DNA from: Xylanimonas ulmi | GTDB lineage: Bacteria > Actinomycetota > Actinomycetes > Actinomycetales > Cellulomonadaceae | Length of the DNA: 64,000 bases | Assembly: GCF_004216535.1 (NCBI RefSeq) | Contig: NZ_SGWX01000001.1 | Coordinates: forward strand, 1,054,001-1,118,000 | Direction of reading: 5' to 3' | In this document: positions 17,397 through 34,826 of the stretch, piece by piece | How positions within the stretch are numbered: position 1 is the stretch's first letter | Layout: each line of letters opens with the position of its first letter | Program-made: the position numbers and the translations under genes | Notes under the pieces: model-generated | What the model was told of the DNA's origin: nothing | What the model saw: the letters and a program-made list of their open reading frames with translations, nothing else | The model's database searches: none

Positions 17397-17790
17397 GGCA
17401 GGAATCATCGCGCACCGCGGCGGGTCCGCCGGCGTCGCGGATCCGGACGCAGTGGAGCCCCGCCGCGGGGGGAGTGCAGCGGGGCTCCGGCGGGCGCTGG
17501 CCGGGTCAAAGGTACCCACGGAGGTAACAGGTTCCTCACCGACCATCGGTCCCACGCCGGCGATGCAGGACACCGGGTGGGTGGCGTTGACGCCCTCACC
17601 CAAGGAAGGTGCAGCCGCGCCCGCCGGGGTGACCTGACAGCGTCGAGTTCGACGCCGCGGGGACGGGCGGCATGGGGTGCCGGCGGGCGGTTTTCTGCCC
17701 CTCCTGGCGTGGGTGGGGGTGCGTAGCGTCGGTGACGACCAACCCACTGGCGGCCTGACCATCCGCCCTGGCTCCGAACGGAGTTTCGTC
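17397..17790. other. 394-bp divergent intergenic region with hairpin
   Basis: No gene is supported here. An inverted repeat at 17454-17463 and 17479-17488 (ggagccccgc / gcggggctcc, 15-nt loop) lies about 60 bp upstream of the minus-strand gene. The segment next to 17791 contains cggag, the ribosome-binding site for the MoxR gene. Divergent promoters must lie here but I cannot place them. Confidence 0.5.
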
Positions 17791-18894
17791 ATGAGCGACC
17801 TCGCTGCGACCGTGACCGTGATCGACGCCTGCGGGCGTGCTGGTGTTCCCGTCCTGCTGCTGTCCGACCCCGGCATGGGCAAGTCGTCCCTGATTCGCGG
17901 CATCGCCGCCGCCGAGGGGGTGCCGTGCGAGACGGTGCTGGGGTCGATCCGCGAACCGGCAGACATTGCCGGCCTGCCCGTGGTGACCGACACCGGCGTC
18001 ACGCTGTGCCCGCCCGAGTTCGCGCGTCGGCTCGCTGAGGCCGAGGCCGGGTACCTGTTCCTGGACGAGCTGACGACGTGCCCGCCTGCGGTGCAGGCCG
18101 TGATGCTCGCCGTGTCCCTCGACAAGACGGTGGGCGACCTGCGCCTGCCGGACGGGGTGCGGATCGTGGCCGGGGCCAACCCGCCCGACCGTGCCGCTGA
18201 CGGCTGGGAGATGAGCCCGCCGCTGGCCAACCGCTTCTGCCACGTCACGTTCGCGCCGTCAGTGGACGAGTGGCTCGACGGCATGACGGTCGGCTGGGGT
18301 GCCCCGCCCGCCTCGCGGGCGATCACCGCTGACAAGACCCGCGTGGAGGCCGTCAAGGCGCTGGTGACCGGGTTCATCCGGCACAAGCCCGAACACCTGC
18401 ACGCCTTCCCGCGCACCGCAGACGGGACGGGTGGGCCGTGGCCGTCGCGCCGCTCGTGGGCCATGCTCGCCGCCGCGCTCGCCAACGTCCGCGACGACGA
18501 CGCCGCCGCCCGTCAGGCGCTCACCTTCGGGTTGATCGGGGAGGGCGTCGGTGTGGAGTTCCTGACCTGGTGCGACCACGCGGACCTGCCCGACCCCGCC
18601 GCCGTGCTGGCCGACCCCTCGATCGTGGACTGGACCGGGCGCCCTGACCGCGTGTGGGCCGTCCTGTCCGCCGTCGTTGGCTGGGCCGCGTCCGCCGCCA
18701 CCGTGGACTCCTGGCGCAAGGCGTGGGGGCCGCTGCTCGCCACCGCCGATGCCGGTGCGCCCGACGTCGCCGCCGCCGCCGCACGCCCGCTGGCCGCGTG
18801 CCGACCAGCCGCTGCGAAGGTGCCCGCCGCCGTGCGCGACAAGTTCAAGCCCGTGCTCGACGCGGCCGGGCTGACCGGGCAGGCCGTGGCATGA
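17791..18894 (+). CDS. MoxR-type AAA+ ATPase
   Basis: 367 residues. Walker A is SDPGMGKSSL (about residues 25-34), Walker B is YLFLDELTT, and sensor 1 is VRIVAGANPPDRAA. NRFCHVTF supplies the arginine-finger region. The C-terminal part is helical and alanine-rich. MoxR ATPases act as chaperones with a vWA-domain partner, here the protein encoded at 20367-21589, from which it has been separated by an IS110 element inserted right after its stop. The ATG 17791 follows cggag at a good distance. The frame appears intact. Confidence 0.88.
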   Translation: MSDLAATVTVIDACGRAGVPVLLLSDPGMGKSSLIRGIAAAEGVPCETVLGSIREPADIAGLPVVTDTGVTLCPPEFARRLAEAEAGYLFLDELTTCPPAVQAVMLAVSLDKTVGDLRLPDGVRIVAGANPPDRAADGWEMSPPLANRFCHVTFAPSVDEWLDGMTVGWGAPPASRAITADKTRVEAVKALVTGFIRHKPEHLHAFPRTADGTGGPWPSRRSWAMLAAALANVRDDDAAARQALTFGLIGEGVGVEFLTWCDHADLPDPAAVLADPSIVDWTGRPDRVWAVLSAVVGWAASAATVDSWRKAWGPLLATADAGAPDVAAAAARPLAACRPAAAKVPAAVRDKFKPVLDAAGLTGQAVA

Positions 18895-18911: not shown

Positions 18912-20132
18912 CTAGGCGGCCAGGTTGTGGGTTTGTCCGGTTTTGACCTGGGTCTGGGTGGCGTGGTTGGTGGCGTCGTAGCAGACGCCGTCGCGCCAGC
19001 AGGCGTAGATCACGCGCAGCCAGGCGCGGGCGAGGATGCGTACGGCGTTCGCGTGGCGCTTGCCGGTGGCGCGGGCTTGGTCGTAGATGGCTGCGGCCCA
19101 GGGACTCGCGCGTCGGGAGTTGTCGGCCCAGAAGGTCAGGGCTTGGCGTGCACGGGTGTTCGTGGCGTAGCGGAACACCACGGCGTGGGACTTGCCCGAG
19201 GCGCGGGTGACGGGCACGACGCCGACTTCGGCGGCGGCCTGGTCCGCGGTGGTGACGCGTTCGAGGATGGGGCCGACCTCGCCGATGATCTGGCCGAGGC
19301 TGATGGTTCCCACGCGTGGCAGGGACGCGATCAGCGGTGCCCAGGGGTGGGCGGCGACCGCGGCGGCGATCTGGGTGTCCAGGGCGGTGATCGCGGTCTT
19401 GAGCGCGCGGATGACGGCGACCTGGGCGCGCACGATCACGGTGATGATCTCGGGCGTCAGGCGGGACGCGGGGAGGGGCGTTGCGCGCAGGCGCGCGACG
19501 AGCACGGCGGGCTCGACGCGTCCGGAGTACTGCTGACGGGCGAGCCAGTCCCGCATCCTGGCGGGGGCCAGGCCCTGGGCGGTGTGGGGTGCGGGGAACC
19601 GTTCGCAGAACGCCAGGGCGATGTCGGAGTCGAGGCGGGCGAAGACTTGCCCGGCGCCGGGCCAGTGCTCGGCCAGGAGTGCGGCGAGCTGGTTGGTGGC
19701 CGCGACGCGGGCGGTGACCTGGTCGGCGCGGGCACGGGTGAGTGCTTGCAGGTCGAGGGTGGCCTGCTCGGTCGGGCGCAGGGTGCGCAGGCGGTGACCG
19801 TCGGTGCGCAGGTAGTCGGCGAGCTTGAACGCGTCGCCGGGGTCGTCCTTGGCGCGCGCCGCGCCCCAGCGGGGACGGGCCGCGTTGAACGCGTTCGGGT
19901 GGATCGGTACGACCGGGTGCCCGGCGGCCAGGAGCCTGTCGACGGCCAGGCCACGGGTGGTCTCGATCGCGACCGGCAGGTCGCTCGGGCAGCCATGGGT
20001 AGCCAGCCGCGCGAGCGTCTTGCTGAAGCCTTCCTCGGTGTGAGGGCTCAGCCAGCCCGCGACTTCGTGGCCGTCGTCACCGATGACGCTGACCGCATGG
20101 GTGGTGTTGCCCCAGTCCCAACCGACGTGCAC
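18912..20132 (-). CDS. IS110-family transposase (second type)
   Basis: 406 residues. The DEDD domain begins HVGWDWGNTTHAVSVIGDDG. IETTRGLAVDRLL, and then RAKDDPGDAFKLADYLR, follow. The C-terminal Transposase_20 region reads LPRVGTISLGQIIGEVGP, and the serine nucleophile is likely in VTRASGKSHAVVFRYATN. I chose GTG 20132, which has ggag seven bases upstream. The frame is open above it but not conserved in character. It appears intact and so possibly active. Confidence 0.88.
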   Translation of the reverse strand: MHVGWDWGNTTHAVSVIGDDGHEVAGWLSPHTEEGFSKTLARLATHGCPSDLPVAIETTRGLAVDRLLAAGHPVVPIHPNAFNAARPRWGAARAKDDPGDAFKLADYLRTDGHRLRTLRPTEQATLDLQALTRARADQVTARVAATNQLAALLAEHWPGAGQVFARLDSDIALAFCERFPAPHTAQGLAPARMRDWLARQQYSGRVEPAVLVARLRATPLPASRLTPEIITVIVRAQVAVIRALKTAITALDTQIAAAVAAHPWAPLIASLPRVGTISLGQIIGEVGPILERVTTADQAAAEVGVVPVTRASGKSHAVVFRYATNTRARQALTFWADNSRRASPWAAAIYDQARATGKRHANAVRILARAWLRVIYACWRDGVCYDATNHATQTQVKTGQTHNLAA

Positions 20133-20366
20133 GTGTCTACTCCGCACCTGCCAAAGGAGCACCACTCGGTGAAGGTCGTCCGCCGGAAGCTCACTGCTCG
20201 GCCCTCTGCGGGGCATGTTCCTGACGCCGATCGGACGGCCTCGGCCCGGCAGGGCCGGCAGAACTCATGCTGGCCGTCGAGCGGCACGCGCAGATGGCCG
20301 TGCACCCGCCGGGACCGAGTGATCACGACCCTACCGATCAAGGCCGCAGAGAGGATGGTCCTCCAG
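20133..20366 (-). ncRNA. Possible bridge RNA region of the second IS110 type
   Basis: The stretch upstream of the transposase is GC-rich and non-coding with several short inverted repeats (for example gccctgccgggcc on the minus strand). By analogy with IS110-group elements it could encode the guide RNA. There is no second copy here for comparison, so support is weak. Confidence 0.3.
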
Positions 20367-21589
20367 TGAGCGCCCCGACCCGCCCCCTGACCAGCGACGA
20401 GCGCGAGGCGTTCCGGCTCGGACGCCTCGTGGCCGCCGAACGCGCCCCGTACTTCATGCACGCGCTGTTCGCCGTCTCGCCCGTCGCCGCCCCCGGCCTG
20501 GACACGTTCGCCGTGGACGGCGCCTGGCGCCTCTACCTCGACCCCGACCTGCTCACCGGCCCGAACCGCTGGGACTCCACGACCATCGGCGCCGTCCTGC
20601 TGCACGAGGTAGGCCACCTGCTGCGCGACCACGCCGGACGCGCCGCCAACCTGCCCAACCCGAGGCACAACCTGGCCTGGAACCTCGCCGGGGACGCCGA
20701 GATCAACGACGACCTGCTCGCGGCCGGTATCCCGCTGCCCGCAGACTGCGTCACCCCCGGCGCGCTCGGCTGCGAGGACGGCGACCTCGCAGAGACGTAC
20801 TACGCCCACCTGGTCCCGCCCACCGGCGCCCCGCCCGCCCTGCCCGACGACGGCTCGGCAGGGTGCGGCTCCGGGTCCGGCTGCCCACCCGCCCCCGGCG
20901 AACTCCCGGCAGGCGTCAACCTGGACGACGGCACCGCCGCCCCCATCACCGCCGCCGAGGGCGACCTCGTGCGCCGCCGCGTCGCCAACGCCGTGCAGGA
21001 AGCCGCCCACGCCAAGGGACGCGGCTCCGTCCCCGCTGGGCTGTCCCGCTGGGCATCCGACGTGCTCGCCCCGCCCACCGTGCCCTGGGAGCGCGTGCTG
21101 CGCGCCGCCGTGCGCCGTGCCGTGGCCGACCGCGCCGGACGGGTCGACTACACCTACTCCCGCCCCTCCCGGCGCCGCCTGCCGCGCATCATCAAGCCCG
21201 CCATGCGCGCCCCCTCCGTGATCGTGTCCGTCGTCGTGGACACGTCCGGCTCCATGGGCCAAGCCGACCTGACCGCCGCCATGAGCGAAGTTACCGGCGT
21301 CCTGCACGCCTCCGGCGTCGCCCGCGAACACCTGCGCCTGCTGTCCGTGGACGCCGCCGCCACCAAGCCCCAACGCATCCGGTCGGTCGCAAGCATCAAC
21401 CTCACCGGGGGCGGCGGCACCGACATGCGCGTGGGCATCGCCGCCGCCGAGGCCGCAACCCGTGCGCCCCACGTCGTGATCGTCCTGACGGACGGATTAA
21501 CTGCACCTGTCAAGCGGGAGGGCAGTTACGTTAGGAGGGACGTCATTCCGTGCAACGGCATTGAGGCGTGGGTCCTCGTCCGCCAGTAG
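20367..21589 (+). CDS. vWA-domain protein with N-terminal metallopeptidase-like domain (altered C-terminus)
   Basis: 407 residues. The N-terminal DUF2201-type domain has the zinc motif LLHEVGHLLRDH near residue 80 and a NLAGDAEINDDL motif. A Gly/Cys-rich linker follows. The C-terminal vWA domain carries the MIDAS motif DTSGSMG (about residue 290), GGGGTDM and VLTDG. It is the usual partner of a MoxR ATPase, and only the IS110 element separates it from one. After VLTDG the sequence changes character (LTAPVKREGSYVRRD), so the last strand of the vWA domain appears replaced, probably by a recombination at about 21497. The start is GTG 20367. Confidence 0.82.
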
Positions 21590-23126: not shown

Positions 23127-23748
23127 CCGGCTCTGTCCCCAGAGAGCTGAGGGATCGGGGCCGCAAACCACGGATACCTGACCTTCCGCGCGATCTCTCG
23201 TCGAGTGGTCATGCGCCGACGGCATCAACGATGCGCTACTGGCGGGGTCGGTACCTTCGCGCGGACAGCGCGGCTGCCACAGGGGGTAGAGCCGTAGCAG
23301 CAACAACCAGCTGCACCGACCTCGACAAGCGGCCCGCAGCAGCCGGCGCCGCACGGCCAGCAGCGGCAGACGGCCACCCGCACATCGACAACTGCGCAGC
23401 CCCGCCCGCAGGGGCATCGGGTATCAGTCAGCCACACCACCACCCGGCAACAACAACAGCCGCATCGGACCGGTCAGTCCGGCGCGGCTGTCCGTTTTGC
23501 TCCCCTGGCCGAGAGGCCACGCCGGGATCGATTCGCCGGGCCTTGGGGAAACGAAACGTACGGCCTGACCTGCGCGGACGGTCTCGTTTCCCTCGTTTCC
23601 CCTCGAAAGCTGGCGGACGCGACCGGGTGATGTTCGGGCGCCGCCGGTGACAAGGGGGCGGGATGTCGGCGGCACCTGCAAGGATCCAGGGGACCTCGAG
23701 GCTCGCGCTGCCGGCGCGGTGACCGACGTCCCTGATGAGGAGTTGCCT
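23127..23748. other. 622-bp region upstream of the defence cassette
   Basis: No convincing gene. A cysteine-rich minus-strand frame (23225-23443) lies here but lacks support. The right half holds the inverted repeat described at 23545-23602 and presumably the cassette promoter. A plus-strand frame continues upstream of the HerA gene to 23647, but its composition is poor and the ribosome-binding site points to 23749. Confidence 0.45.
23545..23602. promoter_or_regulatory. Inverted repeat ggggaaacga upstream of the HerA gene
   Basis: The left arm ggggaaacgaaacg (23545-23558) faces the right arm cgtttccctcgtttcccc (23585-23602). The outer 10 bp of both arms match perfectly, and each arm contains a second partial copy (gaaacg). 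It lies about 150 bp before the first gene of the cassette and could be the operator of an unlinked or now lost regulator. Confidence 0.4.
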
Positions 23749-25848
23749 GTGTCGCAGTCGCTGTTCCCCGCCGCCGGTCACGGCTCCCTACTTGAGCGAG
23801 AGCTCTTGGCGGAGGACCGTTGCGTTCGTGTGGGCGCGATCCATCGGATGGACTTTCACGAAGCGATCGTTCTGACGCACGACAAGTGGAAGCACGACGT
23901 CGCCGGGATCCCGCAGTTCTCGCTGCTCCTGGCCACGGCGCGCGACATCTCGTCGGAGGGCTTCGACGACGACGAGGTGCTGCTCCTCCGCGTCGAGGGG
24001 AGCGCCCCGTTGTCCCTGGAGTCCGACCTGCTCGCGGTGCGCGAGGAGTCGCTGCGGACCGCGCTGTCGCAGTACGACTCTCCCTCGCCTGCAGTGGTCC
24101 TCGACATGGGCTTGGACCCGTTCACTAAGAACCGCGTTTCGTTCACCGGGCTCCGCTGCCGGGTGCTGGGGACGTTCTACGAGTCGATCGTCGACGGCAC
24201 CACACGACTCGAGTTCGGCGCTGACGTCGACAACTTCTACGCCACGTCGACCTACCGCGTGCTCAAGCCCGTTGGCAAGGGCCTGTCCGCGGTCGCCTCG
24301 TACATCAAGCCCGCCCCGACGAAGGAGCCTGTCGACATGGTCCGCATCGGAACGGTGCGGTATTCCTCGACCCGTCGCCGCGCACAGGCCGCCGGACAGG
24401 ACGACGCGGCGGTCCAAGTCAACATCCACGACTTCATCGGCAACAAGACCGGCATGTTCGGCATGACCCGCATGGGTAAGTCGAACACGATGAAGACGGT
24501 CGTTGCCCGGACCCAGGTGATCTCCCAGCTGGCGGTCAAGGCCGGTGGGAGGCCGATCGGGCAGCTGATCCTGGACCCGCAGGGCGAATACGCAAACCCC
24601 AACCAGCAGGACGGGACTGAGATCGCCGCGATTGGCGAGGACCGTGTCGTGATCTACCGGTTCGGTGGCGCGGCCAACGCGAGCAACGTGCGCCCCCTCG
24701 GCATCAACTTCTTCGACCCCGGCCAGCTCGACGTCGCCAAGGGTTTCGTCTCCTCGAGCCTGAGCGAGTCGGGTGCCGACTACGTCCGCGCGTTCGTCAA
24801 CGCCGACTTTGCCGGCACGCCTCGTCCTGGGGAGAGCACCAAGGAGGGGTACGAGCGAGCGGCCCGCGCCGACCGCGGACGCCTGATGCTCTACGGCGCA
24901 CTGGCAAAGGCCGACTTCATGATCCCCACCAAGGACCCCGTCGACACGCAATACCCGTGGCGCGCGTGGGTGTCCATGAAGGACCCCGTCGCCGACGCGA
25001 TCGAGCGGGACCTCCCCGGAGCGCTGTTCCGCCCGGCTCGCAAGGGCAGGGTCGGCGTGAACCGCGACCACCTGGTCGACGTGTGCCAGTGGTTCGTGGA
25101 CCGCGCCGCCGACGGGTCGATGGTCAACACCGACGGGTTCAACTCTTTCGTCGACGGCGACCCATACAAGTCCGCGCTGCCGATCTTCTCCCAGATGAAC
25201 GGCAACCGGTCGGTGTCGGGCTACACCAAGCTCAAGCCGCTGGCTCCGTTCCACCATCCCGACTCCAAGTCGGACTTCCGCGACCAGATCTTCGACGACC
25301 TGGTGGACGGCAAGATCGTGATCGTTGACCTGCACCTCGGCCCGCTCGCCGTGACGCGCCGCATGTCGGAGGGAATCGCCTCGCGGCTCATGGAGCGGCA
25401 GACCGAGACGTTCACGAAGGGCGTCGAGCCTCCGCGGATCCAGGTCGTTCTGGAGGAGGCGCACAACCTGTTCAGCAACCGGCAGTTCACCGACGAGCTG
25501 GATGTGTGGGTGCGGATGGCCAAGGAGTCCTCGAAGCTGAAGATCGGCCTGATTTACGCGACGCAGGAGGTCTCGGGCGTCGCGCACGAGGTGCTCGCCA
25601 ACACCAAGAACTGGGTGGTCGCCCACCTGAACAACACCAAGGAACTGCGGAACCTCGGTCAGTTCTACGACTTCGAGGCGTTCGCCGAGGCGATCATCTC
25701 CCAGGAGGACCGCGGCTATGTGAGGCTGAAGACGATGAGCTCGCCGTACATCGTGCCGGTCCAGATTGACCCGTACGGTCTCGAGCTAGTCAACGAGGCC
25801 CGTGCCGCGGCGAACGACCCGGCTCTCGTGCCGACGAGCGCGGCCTGA
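23749..25848 (+). CDS. herA: HerA-like hexameric ATPase/translocase (DUF87)
   Basis: 699 residues. An N-terminal HAS-barrel-like region (VRVGAIHRMDF) leads to the ATPase core: Walker A GMTRMGKSNTMK at about residues 237-248, LILDPQGEYA, the DLHLG segment before the helical insert, Walker B IQVVLEEAHNLF at about 563-574, and the LIYATQEVSGV sensor. HerA proteins form hexamers that pump double-stranded DNA and work with a NurA nuclease, which is encoded 2 bp downstream. I chose GTG 23749 because aggag lies correctly before it. It is the first gene of a five-gene co-directional set with a methyltransferase, helicase and DUF2290 protein, which places it in genome defence rather than repair. Confidence 0.88.
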   Translation: MSQSLFPAAGHGSLLERELLAEDRCVRVGAIHRMDFHEAIVLTHDKWKHDVAGIPQFSLLLATARDISSEGFDDDEVLLLRVEGSAPLSLESDLLAVREESLRTALSQYDSPSPAVVLDMGLDPFTKNRVSFTGLRCRVLGTFYESIVDGTTRLEFGADVDNFYATSTYRVLKPVGKGLSAVASYIKPAPTKEPVDMVRIGTVRYSSTRRRAQAAGQDDAAVQVNIHDFIGNKTGMFGMTRMGKSNTMKTVVARTQVISQLAVKAGGRPIGQLILDPQGEYANPNQQDGTEIAAIGEDRVVIYRFGGAANASNVRPLGINFFDPGQLDVAKGFVSSSLSESGADYVRAFVNADFAGTPRPGESTKEGYERAARADRGRLMLYGALAKADFMIPTKDPVDTQYPWRAWVSMKDPVADAIERDLPGALFRPARKGRVGVNRDHLVDVCQWFVDRAADGSMVNTDGFNSFVDGDPYKSALPIFSQMNGNRSVSGYTKLKPLAPFHHPDSKSDFRDQIFDDLVDGKIVIVDLHLGPLAVTRRMSEGIASRLMERQTETFTKGVEPPRIQVVLEEAHNLFSNRQFTDELDVWVRMAKESSKLKIGLIYATQEVSGVAHEVLANTKNWVVAHLNNTKELRNLGQFYDFEAFAEAIISQEDRGYVRLKTMSSPYIVPVQIDPYGLELVNEARAAANDPALVPTSAA

Positions 25849-25850
25849 CC

Positions 25851-27254
25851 GTGCCGTACGAGACCGTAGGCGGCGGGTTCGAGCTCGCCTCGCGCACCGG
25901 CCACGCCGAGGCCGTCCTCCGTTCCATGGCCGACCAGCGCAGCTTCTTCGTGCCCGCCGAGAGAGTTACCGACCTCGACTCCTTGAGCCAGAGAGTGCGC
26001 CGCCGGAGCGATATGCCGGCGGCGCCAGTACACACGCTTCGCGCTGCTCTCGCGATCGATGGGTCGCGCATGCCGGCGCACGTACGCGACGGGCTCCCCA
26101 GCGTGGTCTACGGGTTCGCGCAGGCCGCGGCCGCCTACCTCGACCTGCAAGCGCTCGAGAACCAGCGGGCGGTCCGGTTTGTCGACCCAGTCGTCCTGGA
26201 GGGCGCCGTCAACCGGGCGCTGGTCTCTCTCGACCTGCCGTGCGCGGGCGCCTACGAGCGCGAAGGAGTCGACATCAAGCGATCCTGGCGCGAGGCAGTC
26301 GACCGGATCTTCCGCACCAAACGCGTTGAGGTCAACAACCTCAACCTCACCCTCCTCGACCTGCTGTGCCTGCTGTACGGCGCACCCGGCGTTCCAGCGA
26401 CGTCCATCGAGATCGACTGTCAGAACACCGACTGCAAGCAGACGCGCATCGCGGTGCCGGCCGCGGTGGCTGCGGCACCGATCGGGTTCCCGTGCCCGGC
26501 TTGCGACCACCCCGTGTTCCCGACCGACATCCTCGGCATCCACGACGAGGTGGTCGAGGAGGGCACCAACGAGACGTCGCTGGGCCGGCTCATGTCAGTC
26601 GTCGAACTCCTGGTCCTCGTGGGCCTGGTGACCCTGCTGTGGCGCCAGCATCGAGCCGACCTGCTGCCGGAGACGCTGTTCATAGTCGACGGGCCTCTCG
26701 CCGTGATGGGTCCGCCCGCGCCGCTGCGCTATCGCGCGTTGCGGTACTTCCAAGCGATGGGCGGGGGCCCTGCGGGGCACATGCCATACATCGTCGGGGT
26801 GGAGAAAACCGGACCGATCGTCGACTTCGCGCGCCGGCTCCTACAGCACGACGTGCTCGCGCCCGGTGAGCTCCTGGTCTGCGACGCCCGTGTCATCGGG
26901 CAGATCTACAACACCGACAACGCCCTGGGGTATGGCAAGGAGACCTACTGGGGGCGCAAGTTCATCTACCGCACCGCGGACGGCAGGGTGCTCGTGCCCA
27001 CGTTCGTCCCCCCCGCCGGCCGGCCCTACGACCGCGACGGCGGGCTTCCCGACCCGTCCAGCTACCCGCAGATGGCCGCGATCCTTGACGTCTTCGATCG
27101 CACCGGCTCGTCGATGTACCAGGATGGCATCATCCCAACGGCGCTGGCGCACGGGTCGGCCGCGTTCCCGATCGGCGTGGGCACCGACGTGCTCAAGCTC
27201 GTAGCGCGCCGCAAGCTCGGCCTCGACGACGCGCCACGACACGCCAGGCCGTGA
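25851..27254 (+). CDS. nurA: NurA-like nuclease with zinc-ribbon insertion
   Basis: 467 residues. The RNase-H-like NurA domain has its first acidic motif in LAIDGSRMP (about residues 66-74), the second in LFIVDGPLAVMG (about 275-286), IVGVEKTGP afterwards, and a C-terminal KETYWGRKFIYR. Between the first two motifs is a CX5C...CX2C pair, in DCQNTDC and PCPACDHPVF (about residues 189-219), that looks like a zinc ribbon. NurA nucleases degrade DNA from ends when loaded on a HerA hexamer. The GTG start is 2 bp after the HerA stop, so the two are coupled. The zinc insertion is not part of the NurA proteins I know and may add DNA or partner recognition. Confidence 0.75.
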   Translation: MPYETVGGGFELASRTGHAEAVLRSMADQRSFFVPAERVTDLDSLSQRVRRRSDMPAAPVHTLRAALAIDGSRMPAHVRDGLPSVVYGFAQAAAAYLDLQALENQRAVRFVDPVVLEGAVNRALVSLDLPCAGAYEREGVDIKRSWREAVDRIFRTKRVEVNNLNLTLLDLLCLLYGAPGVPATSIEIDCQNTDCKQTRIAVPAAVAAAPIGFPCPACDHPVFPTDILGIHDEVVEEGTNETSLGRLMSVVELLVLVGLVTLLWRQHRADLLPETLFIVDGPLAVMGPPAPLRYRALRYFQAMGGGPAGHMPYIVGVEKTGPIVDFARRLLQHDVLAPGELLVCDARVIGQIYNTDNALGYGKETYWGRKFIYRTADGRVLVPTFVPPAGRPYDRDGGLPDPSSYPQMAAILDVFDRTGSSMYQDGIIPTALAHGSAAFPIGVGTDVLKLVARRKLGLDDAPRHARP

Positions 27255-27300
27255 TCTGAACTGGTGCGGAGTTGAGGCGCAAGTCGGGCAGGATATGGGC

Positions 27301-28536
27301 ATGACCGAGGCAATGGTGGGCGATGTGCGTGTGCCCGCCTCGCCCCGGGAAGTGAGCGAGACCCTCGGGATCCGGGACGGCGCCGCCTTCAGGCTGACCC
27401 CGGGCAAGATCACCCACCCGCTCGCCCAGGGACGCTACCAGTCGCCATTGCGATACCCGGGCGCGAAGTCTGCGCTCGCCCCGGCGCTCGGAAGGGTGAT
27501 CTCCGCGGCGACTGCGTCCAGCGAGGTCCCGCGCGTGGACCTGCTCGTCGAACCGTTCGCTGGCGGCGCGTCCGCGTCGTTGCGGTTGGTCGGCGACGGC
27601 ACCGTGGAGAGGATCCTGCTCGCCGATGCCGACCCGCTAGTCGCGTCGTTCTGGCAGGCGGCGGCCGCCGACACCGACCGGTTGATCGAGCGGATGCAGC
27701 ACGAGCGGAGCACCTACGTGCAGCGCGGTGGCGCCGTCGCCGTCGAGCGCTGGGATTACTGGCGTGACTGGCGTCCCGCGGCCGGTGTCTCGGAGGCGAC
27801 GGCACGCCTCGAAACGGCGGTCAAGTGCCTGTTCCTGAACCGCACGACGTTCTCCGGGATCCTGCACGGACGCGCTGGGCCGATCGGTGGACGCGCGCAG
27901 ACCTCGCCGTACGGGATCGGATGCCGATGGAACCAGCAGGGGCTCGAAGAGCGCCTGCGCTTCATCGGGCACCTCTACTACACCGGCCGGCTCGTAGACG
28001 TGTGGCTCTGCGATTGGCAGCGCACCCTCGAGGACGTGCCCGAGAGGTTCCCGCAACTGATCCCGTCGCGCGTCGTGGCCTACCTCGACCCGCCCTACTT
28101 GGAGAAGTCGGAGAAGCTGTACCGGACAAGCTTCGACCCGCACGGCGGGTACGCGGCCGCGTCCGATGAGGCAGCCGCGCAGACCAGTGAGCGTGTCGGT
28201 GACTTGCACCTGAAGCTGGCGGAGTATCTGCGCGAGCGCGCGCAGTTTCGGTGGGTGCTCAGCTACGACGCCGATCACACCCTGATCCAGGATCCGAGGT
28301 TGTACGCGCGGCGAGAGATGAACCCCTCGAGCCAGGACCGCGAACTGCTCGGCGTGCACCGGTGGCGCATCAGCCGACGCCTGCTGTCCACGCGGTACAG
28401 CGCGTCGGGCAAGAGCGGCAAGCGGGCGGCCAGCGAGCTGCTGCTCACGACGTTGCCGCCGTCAACCGTCCCGCTCGATGAGGAGTTCCGCTCGACGCAC
28501 GAATGGGAGCGGGCCGCGCAGGCGACCACGCGCTGA
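27301..28536 (+). CDS. Dam-type (class D12) adenine-specific DNA methyltransferase
   Basis: 411 residues. Motif X/I is seen as LRYPGAKSALAPAL and LVEPFAGGASASL, a substrate-binding region as KCLFLNRTTFSGILHG, and the catalytic motif IV as AYLDPPYLEKS. It would transfer a methyl group from S-adenosylmethionine to adenine N6 in a specific sequence. The protein is longer than Dam (about 270), with an N-terminal addition and a C-terminal tail. I chose ATG 27301 because gga lies 8 bases before it; ATG 27295 is too close. It follows the NurA gene by 46 bp. In this cassette it probably marks host DNA as self. Confidence 0.88.
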   Translation: MTEAMVGDVRVPASPREVSETLGIRDGAAFRLTPGKITHPLAQGRYQSPLRYPGAKSALAPALGRVISAATASSEVPRVDLLVEPFAGGASASLRLVGDGTVERILLADADPLVASFWQAAAADTDRLIERMQHERSTYVQRGGAVAVERWDYWRDWRPAAGVSEATARLETAVKCLFLNRTTFSGILHGRAGPIGGRAQTSPYGIGCRWNQQGLEERLRFIGHLYYTGRLVDVWLCDWQRTLEDVPERFPQLIPSRVVAYLDPPYLEKSEKLYRTSFDPHGGYAAASDEAAAQTSERVGDLHLKLAEYLRERAQFRWVLSYDADHTLIQDPRLYARREMNPSSQDRELLGVHRWRISRRLLSTRYSASGKSGKRAASELLLTTLPPSTVPLDEEFRSTHEWERAAQATTR

Positions 28537-28662
28537 TGGCTGGTGGCCGGGGCTGGAAGCGACGACGCGGGCCTGTGACCTGCACTCGGGCCGCGACACG
28601 GGGATCGGCGCGGTGTCGCACGCGTCGCTACGCTTACACCCACGCGATCGGAAGGCAGGGCT

Positions 28663-30825
28663 GTGGCGGCTAACAACGTTGTGCGGGGTACCAACACCAA
28701 GCCCGTCGCCAGCGACACGCTCGCTCGGTTCTTCGAGTCGAACCAGGCGCCGACTGGTGGCGAGTTGTTCGTCGGTTACCCGATCACCACCGCCGCCGAC
28801 GGCAAGCGCCCGATCGACGCGGTCTATGTCTCTCCGCAGCACGGTGTCGTGGTCTTCGATCTGGTCGAAGGCACCGATCTCGGCGACTTCGTCGACCGGC
28901 AGGACGACGACGTCAACCGTCTCGACGTGAAGCTTCGCGCCCACCGCGACCTGGTGCGCCGCCGCGAGCTCCTCGTGCAACTGAGCACTGTTACCTTCGC
29001 GCCGGCTTTGTCCCACCCGCACGGCGAGCCGGACTTCCCGGTCGCGAACGAGGCCACCCTCGCGCAGGTCTTGGCAGACTTCGAGCTCGACGAACCGAAC
29101 CCCGAGCTGTTCTTGCGCACCGTGTCGGCGCTGCAGAGCATGTCGCGGATCCGCCGCACCAGCACGGCACGGGTCGTGGTCGACGAGAACTCCCGAGGGG
29201 CACGCCTGAAGGCCCTGGAGGGCTCGATCGCGACCCTCGACGCGCAGCAGTCGCGCGCCGTCATCGAGACCGCCTCGGATGTGCAGCGCATCCGCGGGCT
29301 GGCCGGGTCGGGCAAAACGGTGGTGCTGGCCCTCAAGGCGGCCTACCTGCATGCGCAGCACCCCGAGCTTCGTATCGCGGTGACCTTCATGACGCGGTCC
29401 TTGCGAGAGCAGTTCCGGTCACTGATCACGATGTTCTCGATCGAGCAGGCGGGCGAAGAGCCCGACTGGACGAAGGTCCAGATCCTGCCGGCGTGGGGTG
29501 CGCGCGGTGGCGGCGACCGAGACGGCATCTACTACCGCTTCTGCGTGGAGAACGACGTCGCCTACTACGACTTCGCCTCGGCCAAGGCGCAGTTCGGCGG
29601 CATCGACCCCCTCAGTGGTGCATGCAGCGCGGCGCTCGACGCCGCGAGCGAGCCCGTGCAGTCGTTCGACGTCGTCCTGGTCGACGAGGCCCAGGACCTG
29701 CCGCCGTCCTTCTTGCGCATGTGCTACCAGATGCTCGGTCCGGTCAAGCGCCTGGTCTACGCCTACGACGAGCTGCAGAACCTCAACGCTTCCGGGCTCC
29801 CGCCGGCCGAGGAGATCTTCGGCACCGACAGGGACGGTCGCCCGCTCGTCACGTTCGACCGTGACGACCCGACCGGGGCGCGCCGCGACATCATCCTCTA
29901 CAAGTGCTACCGCAACTCCCGACCGGTCCTGTCCACCGCGCACGCGCTCGGGTTCGGCATCTTTCGAACGCCGCCGCCCGCGCAGAGCACCGGACTGGTG
30001 CAGATCTTTGAGCAAAAGGACCTGTGGGGCGACATCGGCTACCGCGTGACCGACGGGTCCCTCGCCGATGGGGCGCGGGTCCGCCTGGCGCGTACACGCG
30101 ACTCGAGCCCGCTCTTCCTCGAGAACCACTCACCGATCGACGACCTGATCGAGTTCCGCCGCTTCGAAACCGCGGCCGAGCAGGCGCGGTGGGTCGCCGC
30201 TCAGATCAAGCAGAACCTCGAGGTGGACGAGATGGTCGCGAACGACATCATCGTGATCAATCCCGACCCGTTCACGACCCGGAACAACGTCGGCATCCTG
30301 CGCAAGCAACTCGTCGAGCTCGACATCGACTCCCACCTCGCCGGCGTCGACACGCGCGCCGACGTCTTCTTCTCCCCGGAGAGCTCCAGCGTCACCGTCA
30401 CCGGTGTGTACCGGGCGAAGGGCAACGAGGCCGGGATGGTCTACGTCGTCAACGCGCAGGAGAAGTTCACCTCGGGCGCAAACCTCGCGCAGGTGCGCAA
30501 CCGGCTGTTCACGGCGGTCACGCGTTCCAAGGCCTGGGTCAGGGTGACCGGGGTGGGGCCGGAGATGGACGCGCTGATCGAGGAGTTCAACCGCATCAAG
30601 GCCAGTGACTTCGCTCTCGACTTCGTATACCCCAACGAGGAGGTGCGCGCGAAGCTGCGGATCGTGCACCGCGACAAGTCCCAGGTCGTCAAGAAGCTCC
30701 GGCACTACGGGCAATCCCTGGGCGAACTGGTGAGCGACCTGGAGCGCGGCGCCGTCTACACCGAGGACCTCGATGCCGAGACGGTGGCACGGCTGCGCGC
30801 ACTGCTGAGCGACACCGATGCCTGA
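28663..30825 (+). CDS. SF1 (UvrD-like) DNA helicase with NERD-like N-terminus
   Basis: 720 residues. The helicase motifs are RIRGLAGSGKTVVLALKAA (Walker A, about 209-227), DVVLVDEAQDLPPSF (Walker B), YAYDELQNL (motif III), CYRNSRPV (motif IV region), VTGVYRAKGNEAGMVYVV (motif V) and FTAVTRSKAWVRVTG (motif VI). The first ~100 residues (GKRPIDAVYVSPQHGVVVFD) look like a NERD/PD-(D/E)XK fold in which the usual catalytic Lys appears replaced (DLVEG). The GTG start follows ggaagg. A 126-bp gap separates it from the methyltransferase, so a separate promoter is possible. It would unwind DNA or RNA for the cassette. Confidence 0.85.
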   Translation: MAANNVVRGTNTKPVASDTLARFFESNQAPTGGELFVGYPITTAADGKRPIDAVYVSPQHGVVVFDLVEGTDLGDFVDRQDDDVNRLDVKLRAHRDLVRRRELLVQLSTVTFAPALSHPHGEPDFPVANEATLAQVLADFELDEPNPELFLRTVSALQSMSRIRRTSTARVVVDENSRGARLKALEGSIATLDAQQSRAVIETASDVQRIRGLAGSGKTVVLALKAAYLHAQHPELRIAVTFMTRSLREQFRSLITMFSIEQAGEEPDWTKVQILPAWGARGGGDRDGIYYRFCVENDVAYYDFASAKAQFGGIDPLSGACSAALDAASEPVQSFDVVLVDEAQDLPPSFLRMCYQMLGPVKRLVYAYDELQNLNASGLPPAEEIFGTDRDGRPLVTFDRDDPTGARRDIILYKCYRNSRPVLSTAHALGFGIFRTPPPAQSTGLVQIFEQKDLWGDIGYRVTDGSLADGARVRLARTRDSSPLFLENHSPIDDLIEFRRFETAAEQARWVAAQIKQNLEVDEMVANDIIVINPDPFTTRNNVGILRKQLVELDIDSHLAGVDTRADVFFSPESSSVTVTGVYRAKGNEAGMVYVVNAQEKFTSGANLAQVRNRLFTAVTRSKAWVRVTGVGPEMDALIEEFNRIKASDFALDFVYPNEEVRAKLRIVHRDKSQVVKKLRHYGQSLGELVSDLERGAVYTEDLDAETVARLRALLSDTDA

Positions 30826-31498
30826 GCCGCTGGTCGAGTCGTTCCGCAAGGAGTTTCACGACGTCGCGGTCTACCTGATCGAGAAGAGCCTGGTCGACCA
30901 CCAGAACTTCCCGGCCCGGCGCACCCGTTCGGACGACGTCGTGGTGCTCGAGTCCGACTACTGGAAGACGGCGCCGCGCATGCAAGAGAAGGTGCCCTAC
31001 AGCCAGTTGTACGAAGGGGCCTTCGACGCGTCGGCATACGACCTGAGGTTCCTGGACGGGGCCTTGGTCCAGATGCGGTATGAGTTCTCCAAGCGCAGCG
31101 GTCAGCTCCTTCGCTCGAGCGCAAGTTTCCTTCCGTCGCCCGATCTGACCGCGTACCAGGATGACCCCCAGCTGTACTTGCGCGACGAGGTCTACGGGGA
31201 CGTTGTCGACCCTCGAGTCGTGCCGGTCCCGATGCGCGTGGACTTCGACGCGGGCGCAGCGGTCGACCTGCACCACCCGCACTCCCACATGACCTTCGGG
31301 CTGTACGAGCACTGCCGCATCGCGGTGACTGCGGCGATGACGCCCTGGCACTTCCTCGAGCTGGTGTTACGCAGCTTCTACCGGACCAAGGACTGGCTGG
31401 GTACCGATGAGCTCCCGGGTCCCCGCGTGAAGATGCCGAAGACGATCACGCCTCGAGAGCAGGAGCTCGGGCACTTCGCCGTTCCTGCATCTGCGTAG
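30818..31498 (+). CDS. DUF2290 protein
   Basis: 226 residues. The DUF2290 pattern is clear in its second half: VVPVPMRVDFD, LHHPHSHMTFGLYEHCRIAV, and TPWHFLELVLRSFYRTKD. The biochemical role is unknown. It overlaps the helicase gene by 8 bp, so it is translationally coupled and likely works with it. The conserved His-rich motif could bind metal. It is the last gene of the cassette; about 190 bp of spacer separate it from the convergent gene at 31693-32715. Confidence 0.8.
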   Translation: MPEPLVESFRKEFHDVAVYLIEKSLVDHQNFPARRTRSDDVVVLESDYWKTAPRMQEKVPYSQLYEGAFDASAYDLRFLDGALVQMRYEFSKRSGQLLRSSASFLPSPDLTAYQDDPQLYLRDEVYGDVVDPRVVPVPMRVDFDAGAAVDLHHPHSHMTFGLYEHCRIAVTAAMTPWHFLELVLRSFYRTKDWLGTDELPGPRVKMPKTITPREQELGHFAVPASA

Positions 31499-31692: not shown

Positions 31693-32715
31693 TTAGCGCA
31701 TGCGCTCGGCGAGCTGGTCGAAGAACTCAGCGAGCATCCCGTCCGCGCCGTCCTTCATGAGCTCGGCCCCACCGAACCGGTAGACCTCATATCCAGCGAG
31801 CTTGAGCCGCCGGTCCTCGGCCACCATCTCGCTGTAGAGCGTCGGGCTCGCGGTCTCACCTTGCGCATAGTGCTGCTTCCCGTCGACCTCGAGGACGACC
31901 CGATGTCTGTTGGAGAACAGGATCAGGAAGTCCATCCGCTGCCGCTGAAGCGGTCGACCGCTCTGGCCGGCTCGCCGGCGGGCGAGTTGGGTCGTGGGGT
32001 CGAAGTGCAGGTAGACCTGAGGAATCAGAGCCGGGATCTCAAACTTCTCGTCTTTGTAGCGCGCCGCGTAGGCCTCAAACACGACGAGTTCGGCGGGATT
32101 GGCTCCGAGGGACTCCTGGAGGCGACGATGCAGATCCAACCCGACGTCCCGCGCTGACGCGGTATCGGCGAAGCCTTGACGCTCTCGCCACCAATCGATC
32201 AGGTTGCTGTACTTCAGGCCGTCGGCCGGGATCGGCCGGTCGTAGACGAGGCAGTACTCGCCGTTGCGGACGATCTCGATATCGTTGTTGAGGGCGTCGC
32301 GCAGCACCAAGTCGGGCTTGGGACCGTTCGCAGCGAAGATCAGGTTCTTCGCGGGCGCGCCGACACCTCCTCCGCGGTCGTGCTCGGCAAGGAGGGCGGT
32401 CAGGTCGGCGAGAGCGGCCTCGGATAGCTCGAGCTCACTGATGATTCGACGCGCCAGGGCGACGAGTTGGGGGAGGTTCCAGCCCTTGGTGTACGCCTGG
32501 ATGACTTCGCGCTTGCTGTAGTCGGGGTCACTTGGCGGGCGATCCGACTCCGGCCATGGCAGCCCGAACTCCTCGGCGAGGACCGTCTCCAGGTTGCGCC
32601 GCGTGTAGGCCATGAGCGCCGCCTCGATAGCGCTCCGGAACGCTCGCGACGACACCTTGGCCGGAGCCTTCGTGGGATCGAAGAGCGCCGCGTTGAAGAA
32701 GTTGAGACCGCTCAC
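31693..32715 (-). CDS. AbiJ-N-terminal-like protein with PD-(D/E)XK (Vsr/DUF559-like) nuclease domain
   Basis: 340 residues from GTG 32715 (the frame is open to 32805). The N-terminal ~110 residues (FRSAIEAALMAYTRRNLETV, then SKREVIQAYTKGWNLPQLV) resemble the AbiJ N-terminal recognition domain. The C-terminal ~110 residues form a nuclease of the Vsr/DUF559 kind, with Asp in RQRMDFLILFSNRHRVV and Glu/Lys in LEVDGKQHYA. YSEMVAEDRRLKLAGYEVYR, the usual helix-strand end of that fold, follows. It faces the HerA-NurA cassette. A fused recognition and effector protein of this kind would be expected to cause abortive infection by cutting nucleic acid. The domain calls are by eye. Confidence 0.65.
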   Translation of the reverse strand: MSGLNFFNAALFDPTKAPAKVSSRAFRSAIEAALMAYTRRNLETVLAEEFGLPWPESDRPPSDPDYSKREVIQAYTKGWNLPQLVALARRIISELELSEAALADLTALLAEHDRGGGVGAPAKNLIFAANGPKPDLVLRDALNNDIEIVRNGEYCLVYDRPIPADGLKYSNLIDWWRERQGFADTASARDVGLDLHRRLQESLGANPAELVVFEAYAARYKDEKFEIPALIPQVYLHFDPTTQLARRRAGQSGRPLQRQRMDFLILFSNRHRVVLEVDGKQHYAQGETASPTLYSEMVAEDRRLKLAGYEVYRFGGAELMKDGADGMLAEFFDQLAERMR

Positions 32716-33157
32716 TCTGCCATTGTCCCCGTGGCCCACGGCAAACCATGGAACCTTCGCGCCTGGCCGGGACTGAGCACGGTGGCCCCAGTCCGAGTCG
32801 CCCATCGCGACACGGCCGGTCGCAGCGCAAGCCCGACCACCCCGGGTTCAGGGCTTCCTGCTGCGCCACGCGGGTGTTGCTCTCCACTGGCGTACATTCC
32901 GAACCACTCGAGGCACACAGTGTCGCCCGACGGTGCGTACATCCGTCGCCGAGGGTCATGTTCGCAGCCACTTTGGCCTGACGTCGCAGATCGGCCACAC
33001 GACGGGGAGTGCCTGCTTGGGCGCGGTGCCACCGCCGAGAGGCGCAGAGCGTGCTTGCCGCGCCGTTGCAGGGCCAGTTGGTGGGATCAGTGAGCCCGGA
33101 AGGGGCTGCAAGACCCCCGTCGTCGCCCCCCACGTCAACCAAGCCGCCGCCGTCCGC
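32716..33157. other. 442-bp spacer between defence gene and ISL3 element
   Basis: No gene, repeat or RNA is recognised. Short frames on both strands have poor codon use. It may hold the promoter of the AbiJ-like gene at its left end. Confidence 0.5.
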
Positions 33158-34826
33158 GGCTCTGGCGCACTTTCGGTGGTGTGGCCTGCGGTGTGGCCTG
33201 CGGTTGTGTGGCCTGCCGTGACGCTCAGGCTGTCAGGAGGATGCGGTGGCGGAGGAGGTCGAATCCGGCGCGTCCGTACATCTGGCGTTTGAGCATCTTG
33301 GTGCGGGTGTTGACGCCCTCGGTGCGCCCGTTGTGGTGCGGCAGGGTGACCGCTGCTATGACGGCGTCGCGGTCTTGTTCCAGGCCGCGGACGAAGGAGT
33401 GCAGGTGCGGCAACGACGCCGCGCGGGCCTGCTCGATCCAGGAGGTCAGGGCGTCGGCGTTCGACTCGTCGGGGGCGAGCAGCCGGGCGAACCCGGCGAC
33501 GAGGTCGTGCAGGGCGGTCATCTCCGGGCACGCCGCGACGAGCCGTCCGAGGCGTTCGGTCTGCCGCTCGGTCAGGGCGGTGGGTCGGGTGAGCAGGAGC
33601 CGGGTCGCGTGCCGTGGGGACAGGTGCTGGTGCTCGCCCGGGTGGCGGTGCTGGTTCAGGTACCGGTAGAGCAGGTTCTGGCTCCCGGTGTACCCGAGGT
33701 CGCGGATCTCGGCCAGCAGTTGCTGCACGCTCACGCCCGGCTCTGCGTCCCGGCGTCGGCGTAGGTGGTCGCGGTAGGGGTCGACCAGAGTGGCCCGGTA
33801 GCGCGGTGGGCGGGCGATCTGCTCGGGCTTGGCGGCGCGGGCGTACCGCTTGACGGTGTTCAGCGCGATCCCGAGGCGGCGTGAGCAGTCCAGCAAGCCG
33901 ACCCCGGCGTCCAGCAGTTCGTGGACCTGCTCCCAGCGTTGCGCGGTGGTCTCGGCGAGCCGTCCTTCGCGCATGCCGGTCGCGGTGGCCGCGGCCCAGC
34001 ACGCCGAGTGCGCCGCGACCTCCTTGCCGACGGCGTCACCGAGGCCGTGCCATAGGTGCCACCGGTCGGCGACCTGTGTCGCGTCCGGCAGGACGTCGCG
34101 CACGGCCTGGGCGTAGACGCATCGACCCGTCCCTTGTGACGACCTGCACCCCGGGATGGGCGGTCAGCCACGCCTTGACGACGTCGGCGTCCCGGCCGGG
34201 GATGACGTCGACCCGGCGGCCGGTGTCCGCGTCGATCAGGACGGTCGCGTAGACCTGCCCGCGCCGCAACGCGAAGTCGTCGATCCCCAGCACCCGCGGC
34301 ACGACCAGCGCCGGGAGCTCGATCCTGCGCAGGACGCGCAGCGCGGTGTCTCGCCGCAGGCGCATGCCGAGAGCTGGGGCGAGCCGGGCCGAGGCGCGCC
34401 CCGCGAGCTCGGTCACCACGGCCTCGAGGGCTTCGGTCAGCCGGGCCGTGCGCCGTTGATAACGCTCAAGCACGCCCGGGACCTGCTCACGGAACGTCCT
34501 GCGCGGGCAGTGCGGCGACTGGCAGACCAGGCGCCGCACCCGGACCCGCAGCACGACCCGCAGCCCAGCGACGGGCAGGTCAGCCGGCGCGCGCTCGTGC
34601 CAGGCATGCAACCGCGTCGACGGCCGCCCGCAGACCGGGCAACCCGCTGGCCCGCCACGTGTCGTCACGGCGAGGACGAGCCCGCCCTCGCCCTCCTCCA
34701 CGTCCTGGACGATCAGCCCGTCCAGCCCCGCGAACACCGCCCTGACCAGCACCGACGCATCGAGCACGGCAGATCATGACAGATCCGCCGAACGCAATCG
34801 GTCACCACCGAAAGTGCGCCAGAGCC
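33158..34826 (-). mobile_element. ISL3-family element (inactive)
   Basis: It is bounded by perfect 23-bp terminal inverted repeats (33158-33180 and 34804-34826, beginning ggctctggcgcactttcggt). The flanking octamers (ccgtccgc and gctggctt) are not duplicates, so one side has been rearranged. The transposase is frameshifted. Confidence 0.85.
33225..34767 (-). pseudogene. ISL3-family transposase, frameshifted
   Basis: The N-terminal part (to about 34121) has the zinc-binding start CPVCGRPSTRLHAW, a second CQSPHCPRRTF, and the first catalytic Asp in LGIDDFALRRGQVYAT. Near 34121 one extra base shifts the frame. The rest, readable from AQAVRDVLPDATQVADRWH onward, includes the second Asp region and the C-terminal Glu region (LPHHNGRTEGVNTRTKMLK). 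As sequenced no complete transposase can be made. Confidence 0.85.

Follow-up and report, generated by a model that had tools for sequence, protein, structure and literature searches.

The window analysed here is a 64,000-nucleotide stretch of contig NZ_SGWX01000001.1 of Xylanimonas ulmi, in which five adjacent genes form a compact cassette at 23749–31498. The first three encode a HerA-like ATPase (23749–25848), a NurA-like nuclease (25851–27254) and a D12-class, N6-adenine DNA methyltransferase (27295–28536), and are referred to here as module 1. The remaining two, module 2, encode a superfamily 1 (SF1), UvrD-like helicase (28663–30825) and a DUF2290 protein (30818–31498). All five open reading frames were confirmed on the forward strand, as the initial annotation had them, and for four of the five proteins Pfam gives a match that passes the curated cut-off. 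HerA and NurA are separated by 2 bp and NurA and the methyltransferase by 40 bp, while the helicase and DUF2290 genes overlap by 8 bp. The largest spacing is the 126 bp gap between the methyltransferase and the helicase (28537–28662, assigned to neither strand). A simple σ70-type scan found no promoter-like site in this gap and the promoter and terminator scan was at chance level. It is taken to be the boundary between the modules because these recur separately at other loci. The HerA reading frame has its first start, a GTG, at 23647, and the GTG at 23749 is favoured as the start because GAGGAG precedes it six bases upstream.

HerA, NurA or a methyltransferase of the window type is found at none of nine other helicase-DUF2290 loci, and the helicase or DUF2290 at none of 22 other NurA loci. 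Flanking sequence is short in three cases, with L040 and L043 beginning at the start of their records and L056 being a contig of 4.4 kb. Likewise, in a phylum sample of 396 genomes, the true helicase (3 genomes) and NurA (9 genomes) coincide only in the window's own genome. The region should therefore be seen as two independent neighbouring defence modules, the known Helicase-DUF2290 system and a restriction-modification-like HerA-NurA-methyltransferase module, rather than as one system, with a probability of roughly 0.7. The initial annotation had instead proposed that the five genes are one coupled defence system, in which the helicase and DUF2290 would feed DNA to HerA-NurA. The genes are indeed contiguous, on the same strand and closely spaced, yet this arrangement is seen at neither set of loci, the components share no other genome of the sample, and the largest gap falls at the module boundary. 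A single coupled system is thus quite improbable. Recurrence of the five-gene set in unrelated genomes had been named beforehand as the outcome that would support it, and rare co-occurrence as the one that would speak against it; rare co-occurrence is what was found. The more general proposal of an antiphage grouping of methylase and nuclease survives for HerA-NurA-methyltransferase, which is recurrent and resembles restriction-modification, and for which an antiphage role is likely. The helicase and DUF2290 are not part of it.

Module 2 (28663–31498) is an ordinary member of the Helicase-DUF2290 antiphage system, and protection against phage by the window copy is predicted. The helicase, which matches Pfam UvrD families, aligns with PADLOC model PDLC03002 over residues 5–716 of 720 (E 1.4e-282, 937 bits), and the DUF2290 protein matches PDLC02999 (4.3e-59) and PF10053 (6.2e-31). 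Both PADLOC models are matched nearly full length, and nothing is notably different from the known system other than the position of the pair beside module 1. The original description reports that the pair inhibits phage T7 and is found in P4-like satellites (Rousset et al. 2022, PMC9122126). A DUF2290 gene follows the helicase in all nine of the further loci (Pseudarthrobacter L034, L032, L033 and plasmids L040–L045), the plasmid loci being six that were opened out of 40 matching records. True helicases were defined by E below 1e-100, which left three of the 109 genomes matched in the phylum sample, where at most two candidates were scored per genome; scores in the remaining genomes were about 30 bits at most. 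The helicase has no match among phage records at 1e-30. On a Thioflavicoccus plasmid (L045, 7578–10431) the pair lies within a BREX operon, between the methyltransferase and PglZ genes. By eye, the first ~120 codons of the helicase look NERD-like, having the conserved GYP and DA of the NERD motif, and no clear nuclease E-x-K is present in nine aligned sequences.

The HerA-like protein matches Pfam DUF87 at 32.5 bits (cut-off 23.2). Read from the sequence, it contains the Walker A motif GMTRMGKS, whose lysine is K278 when counted along the longer reading frame, as well as the motifs IVIVDL and EEAH. TdpA is the best Protein Data Bank (PDB) match of two HerA family profiles (1.3e-23 and 3.9e-35). 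With the second profile, the next solved chain is at 5.3e-19 and 4d2i, the Sulfolobus HerA, is at 1.3e-14. In PADLOC 2.0.0 the protein matches only remotely, to HerA models (4.6e-13) and to mad8 (1.8e-12), and against the NCBIfam antiphage HerA models it scores 38.4 bits (cut-off 800) and 17.8 bits (cut-off 850).

None of Pfam, PADLOC, NCBIfam and PHROGs yields a match for the window NurA-like protein. Its identity is instead drawn from homologues that are NurA-like or annotated as NurA. Plasmid homologues are found in Halorarius, Nostoc, Calothrix, Tolypothrix and Deferribacter, and three of these five are annotated NurA. Six homologues were scanned with Pfam NurA, of which Nostoc scores exactly at the gathering score and Deferribacter below it. 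The NurA call of the initial annotation therefore stands through the homologues, by their annotations and by the one Pfam match at the gathering score, and not through a Pfam match of the window protein. Residues invariant across 18 NurA-like sequences include D70 (in IDGS), D280 (in DGPL) and cysteines 190, 215 and 218. The cysteines belong to a Cys-rich, zinc-ribbon-like insertion near residues 190–218, through which the top PDB matches of the NurA profile are mostly zinc-ribbon or zinc-finger proteins (best E 0.0016).

The distribution of module 1 was determined by NurA-profile searches of the phylum sample, an overlapping class sample of 394 genomes, plasmid records, and phage and viral contigs. 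NurA is present in 9 of the 396 and 8 of the 394 genomes, with three genomes common to both. Including the window there are 23 distinct NurA loci: 14 in genomes, five on plasmids and four viral, the last being a Vibrio prophage and three viral contigs. The loci lie in actinobacteria, on an archaeal plasmid and other plasmids, and in the Vibrio prophage and viral contigs. Three records (L080, L081 and L082) duplicate contigs already represented by L077 and L078 and were left out, as was Vibrio phage PQ189353, which is within one base of the length of PQ189371 and has the same two kinds of match, the two not having been compared base by base. A first NurA scan and a HerA-profile scan of the viral contigs gave no matches. 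HerA adjoins NurA in 22 of the 23 loci, the HerA of L056 being truncated by the contig end, and the exception, L057, holds only a shortened NurA. The Vibrio prophage has an integrase followed by HerA, NurA and a convergent methyltransferase; viral contig L078 has a methyltransferase followed by HerA and NurA, with an integrase about 1 kb further on. An IS200/IS605 element with TnpB disrupts the HerA gene of the Deferribacter locus (L039, 4598–8396). At L072 (776–15186) the neighbours include a DpdE-like SNF2 helicase (1.4e-231), and the protein directly upstream of HerA matches RT-associated-helicase and GajB models.

The window methyltransferase matches Pfam D12 (PF02086) at 4e-12, has FAGG and DPPY motifs, and is the sole D12 match found in its own genome. 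Its closest PADLOC model is PD-Lambda-5_B (2.1e-49) and its nearest plasmid relative is in a Rhizobium record without annotation. A single-sequence search of solved chains gave no match for this protein, the helicase or DUF2290. Of the 23 loci, window included, 18 have a DNA methyltransferase next to NurA. The enzyme is of the D12 class in 15 (the window, L059–L063, L072–L076, L064, L077, L078 and L079), where L079 is assigned by 51–56% identity to the L077 and L078 enzymes. It is of the N6_N4 class in three, L035 and L039 by Pfam and L058 by 31–38% identity to these two; their SPPY motif possibly indicates N4-methylcytosine (m4C). Three cyanobacterial plasmids, L056 (a short contig) and L057 (fragmentary) make up the five loci without an adjacent methyltransferase. 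The methyltransferase has no fixed place relative to HerA-NurA: at some loci it follows them on the same strand, at others it precedes them or is convergent or divergent. Downstream of the Nostoc HerA-NurA pair, which lacks a methyltransferase, is an AbiTii-domain gene (L036, 10372–11430).

The association is also seen across genomes. Twelve of the 14 NurA genomes were scanned for D12, two fragmentary ones being left out, and D12 is matched 12 times in them, 11 times beside HerA-NurA and once elsewhere (G532, contig 94). The only one of the twelve lacking D12, G135, carries an N6_N4-class enzyme next to HerA. Of the 394 genomes of the class sample, 70 have a D12 match, comprising all 8 with NurA and 62 of the 386 that lack it (Fisher p 7e-7; 4e-6 when the window's own genome is left out). 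A linked modification enzyme and nuclease, as in the restriction-modification class, is therefore found both in the 18 loci and in this genome-wide association.

HerA and NurA diverge together, and the methyltransferase is swapped independently of them, including between the D12 and N6_N4 classes. In a core set of nine actinobacterial loci, with D12 enzymes and a HerA at least 35% identical to that of the window, pairwise identities of HerA and NurA are correlated at r 0.965, compared to −0.156 for HerA and methyltransferase and −0.14 for NurA and methyltransferase. Leaving out any single core locus gives HerA-methyltransferase values between −0.27 and 0.09. L072 and L059 have HerA proteins that are 84% identical and NurA proteins that are 80% identical, yet their methyltransferases are only 32% identical and on opposite strands, and that of L072 has more in common (42%) with the enzyme of the Vibrio prophage. 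The reverse is seen for L061 and L075 relative to the window, with HerA 37% and NurA 30% identical but methyltransferases 63–64% identical.

The surroundings of the cassette are rich in insertion sequences (IS), as the initial annotation had observed, with an IS110 element upstream and a broken ISL3 element downstream. The IS110-family transposase gene (18912–20216, reverse strand) lies about 3.5 kb upstream of the HerA gene and splits an apparent pair formed by an AAA_5 ATPase gene (17677–18894) and a DUF2201 metallopeptidase/VWA gene (20267–21589). The ISL3-family transposase gene (33225–34767, reverse strand) lies about 1.7 kb downstream as two overlapping reading frames and is probably broken. 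Convergent with DUF2290 is a gene for a 370-aa protein (31693–32805, reverse strand), which has a DUF559-like match exactly at the cut-off and a weak AbiJ_NTD3 match below it. Relatives that are ~71–73% identical are found on Arthrobacter plasmids, and 74 plasmid records match overall. This is possibly another defence or mobile-element nuclease.

Among systems already known, the PADLOC models recognise Helicase-DUF2290 in the cassette, and module 1 as a system has no match in that database. The nearest likeness to module 1 is TdpABC, a phosphorothioate-based restriction system in which HerA-like TdpA and NurA-like TdpB degrade DNA not carrying the phosphorothioate that TdpC introduces. Both combine a HerA-like motor, for which TdpA is the best solved match, with a NurA-like nuclease and a DNA-modifying enzyme. 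The modifying enzyme of module 1, however, is a DNA methyltransferase of the D12 or N6_N4 class, encoded by the third gene, and the similarity of NurA to TdpB is not significant. Family scans of the cassette proteins, to which the search was limited, contained no TdpC phosphorothioation enzyme.

The initial annotation had likened the cassette to the helicase-methylase-ATPase (HMA) class, a likeness in words only, as both combine helicase, methyltransferase and ATPase components. In that system HmaA is the helicase, HmaB a 5-methylcytosine (m5C) methyltransferase and HmaC the ATPase (Payne et al. 2021, PMC8565338). The window enzyme is of the D12 N6-adenine class rather than m5C and no Hma model is matched by the window proteins, therefore HMA membership is unsupported. 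The methylation-associated defence system (MADS), which has a set of eight mad proteins, includes the HerA-like mad8 and has a name that implies methylation. It was rejected as the parent system, since the mad8 match is remote and no other mad model is found among the eight window proteins scanned. PD-Lambda-5, presumably a two-protein system from its model names, is likewise not favoured as the parent system, as only PD-Lambda-5_B is matched, by the methyltransferase, and no other PD-Lambda-5 model is found among the same eight proteins. It is described as a compacted restriction-modification and Abi (RM+Abi) system. SIR2-HerA and DUF4297-HerA also couple a HerA ring to an antiphage effector; here the HerA scores well short of the NCBIfam cut-offs, the partners are NurA and a methyltransferase, and Pfam gives no SIR2 or DUF4297 match in the cassette.

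Canonical HerA-NurA shares with module 1 the adjacency of the two genes, and its DUF87 is found here, while its Pfam NurA is not matched by the window protein. Module 1 differs in the Cys-rich insertion of NurA, in the methyltransferase linkage and in its mobile, patchy distribution; such an insertion is not known from canonical NurA. No HerA-NurA-methyltransferase system is described in the titles and abstract openings of the HerA and NurA literature, a search whose coverage largely excludes subscription papers and preprints. A word search of PMC12839542 and eLife 52696 gave no mention of NurA, and both mention HerA, eLife 52696 in a reference only. Module 2 is thus already known, and module 1 appears from its gene content to be new as a restriction-modification-like variant with a Tdp-like motor, in which methylation would replace phosphorothioation.

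The best reading of module 1 is a restriction-modification-like system, with HerA-NurA as a putative restriction arm and methylation as a putative self-mark. This division is proposed because of the TdpA-like motor and by analogy with the action of TdpA and TdpB, with the methyltransferase standing in for TdpC. The methyltransferase would mark host DNA as self. The HerA ring, probably a hexamer, would thread double-stranded DNA into a NurA dimer, which would cut both strands, so that unmarked foreign DNA would be degraded and marked self DNA spared. Reading of the mark may fall to the methyltransferase, as specificity subunit, or else to HerA or to the zinc-ribbon-like insertion of NurA. The exchange of methyltransferases, including that between D12 and N6_N4, implies that either the methyltransferase supplies the specificity or HerA-NurA senses marks in general. 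In its broadest form the proposal is of a widespread and undescribed class of restriction-modification, consisting of a ring-shaped HerA-NurA pump and a plug-in methyltransferase exchangeable across the D12 DPPY and N6_N4 SPPY classes. This is put forward tentatively, at a little under even odds.

Several observations weigh against this interpretation. The match of HerA to TdpA is remote and mostly in the C-terminal ATPase region. The matches of the NurA profiles to TdpB are not significant (E 0.05 and 0.14), extend over the C-terminal half of NurA and rank behind zinc-finger proteins; the PDB matches of these profiles include no chain named NurA. There is no explanation for how sparse methyl marks would stop a processive motor-nuclease. 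The HerA-methyltransferase correlation of the core set becomes positive (0.43) once the three most discordant loci are removed together, and is 0.68 over all 15 D12 loci. The latter indicates that broad lineages keep their own methyltransferase types, and exchange is therefore demonstrated by a few clear cases. The three cyanobacterial plasmids carry HerA-NurA with no adjacent methyltransferase and neither Pfam methyltransferase class anywhere on the plasmid, the search having covered plasmids and not chromosomes. The methyltransferase is therefore not strictly obligate, and such pairs may use another partner. Lastly, nine neighbouring proteins were scanned at four related loci, and PADLOC-matching neighbours were found at only two (L058 and L072, but not L059 and L060).

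The cyanobacterial loci would also fit an alternative in which HerA-NurA is a machine for DNA-end processing or repair, and the methyltransferase an accessory for regulation or, on phages, for evading host restriction. Archaeal and bacterial HerA-NurA are described as end-resection factors (PMC5715905, PMC9960219 and PMC4351679), and the four viral copies may benefit the virus. This is nevertheless unlikely, as the patchy distribution in both samples is unlike that of a housekeeping repair gene, the methyltransferase has been exchanged between classes, and the HerA is nearer to TdpA than to 4d2i. The occurrence on plasmids and prophages near integrases suggests a further alternative, a selfish stability module in which loss of the methyltransferase would kill the cell through HerA-NurA and so retain the mobile element. 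Such stabilisation is a known property of restriction-modification systems, and it is compatible with defence. However, of the 23 loci, 14 come from genome assemblies, some of which at least are single-contig genomes, and half of the four related loci sampled have PADLOC-matching neighbours. A purely selfish role is quite improbable.

Most work on HerA-NurA has treated it as a repair machine. According to PMC12977600, an archaeal HerA-NurA cleaves both strands of double-stranded DNA and an antiviral role is suggested by the authors, which raises a role in defence as an open question. The methyltransferase-linked HerA-NurA of module 1 makes this question testable, by asking whether loss of the methyltransferase turns HerA-NurA on host DNA. 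If the restriction-modification reading is true, either the motor would read methylation while translocating or the methyltransferase would be a specificity subunit, and the motor could be re-targeted by swapping methyltransferases. It also suggests that phosphorothioate-based Tdp systems and methylation-based systems may have one type of restriction motor in common.

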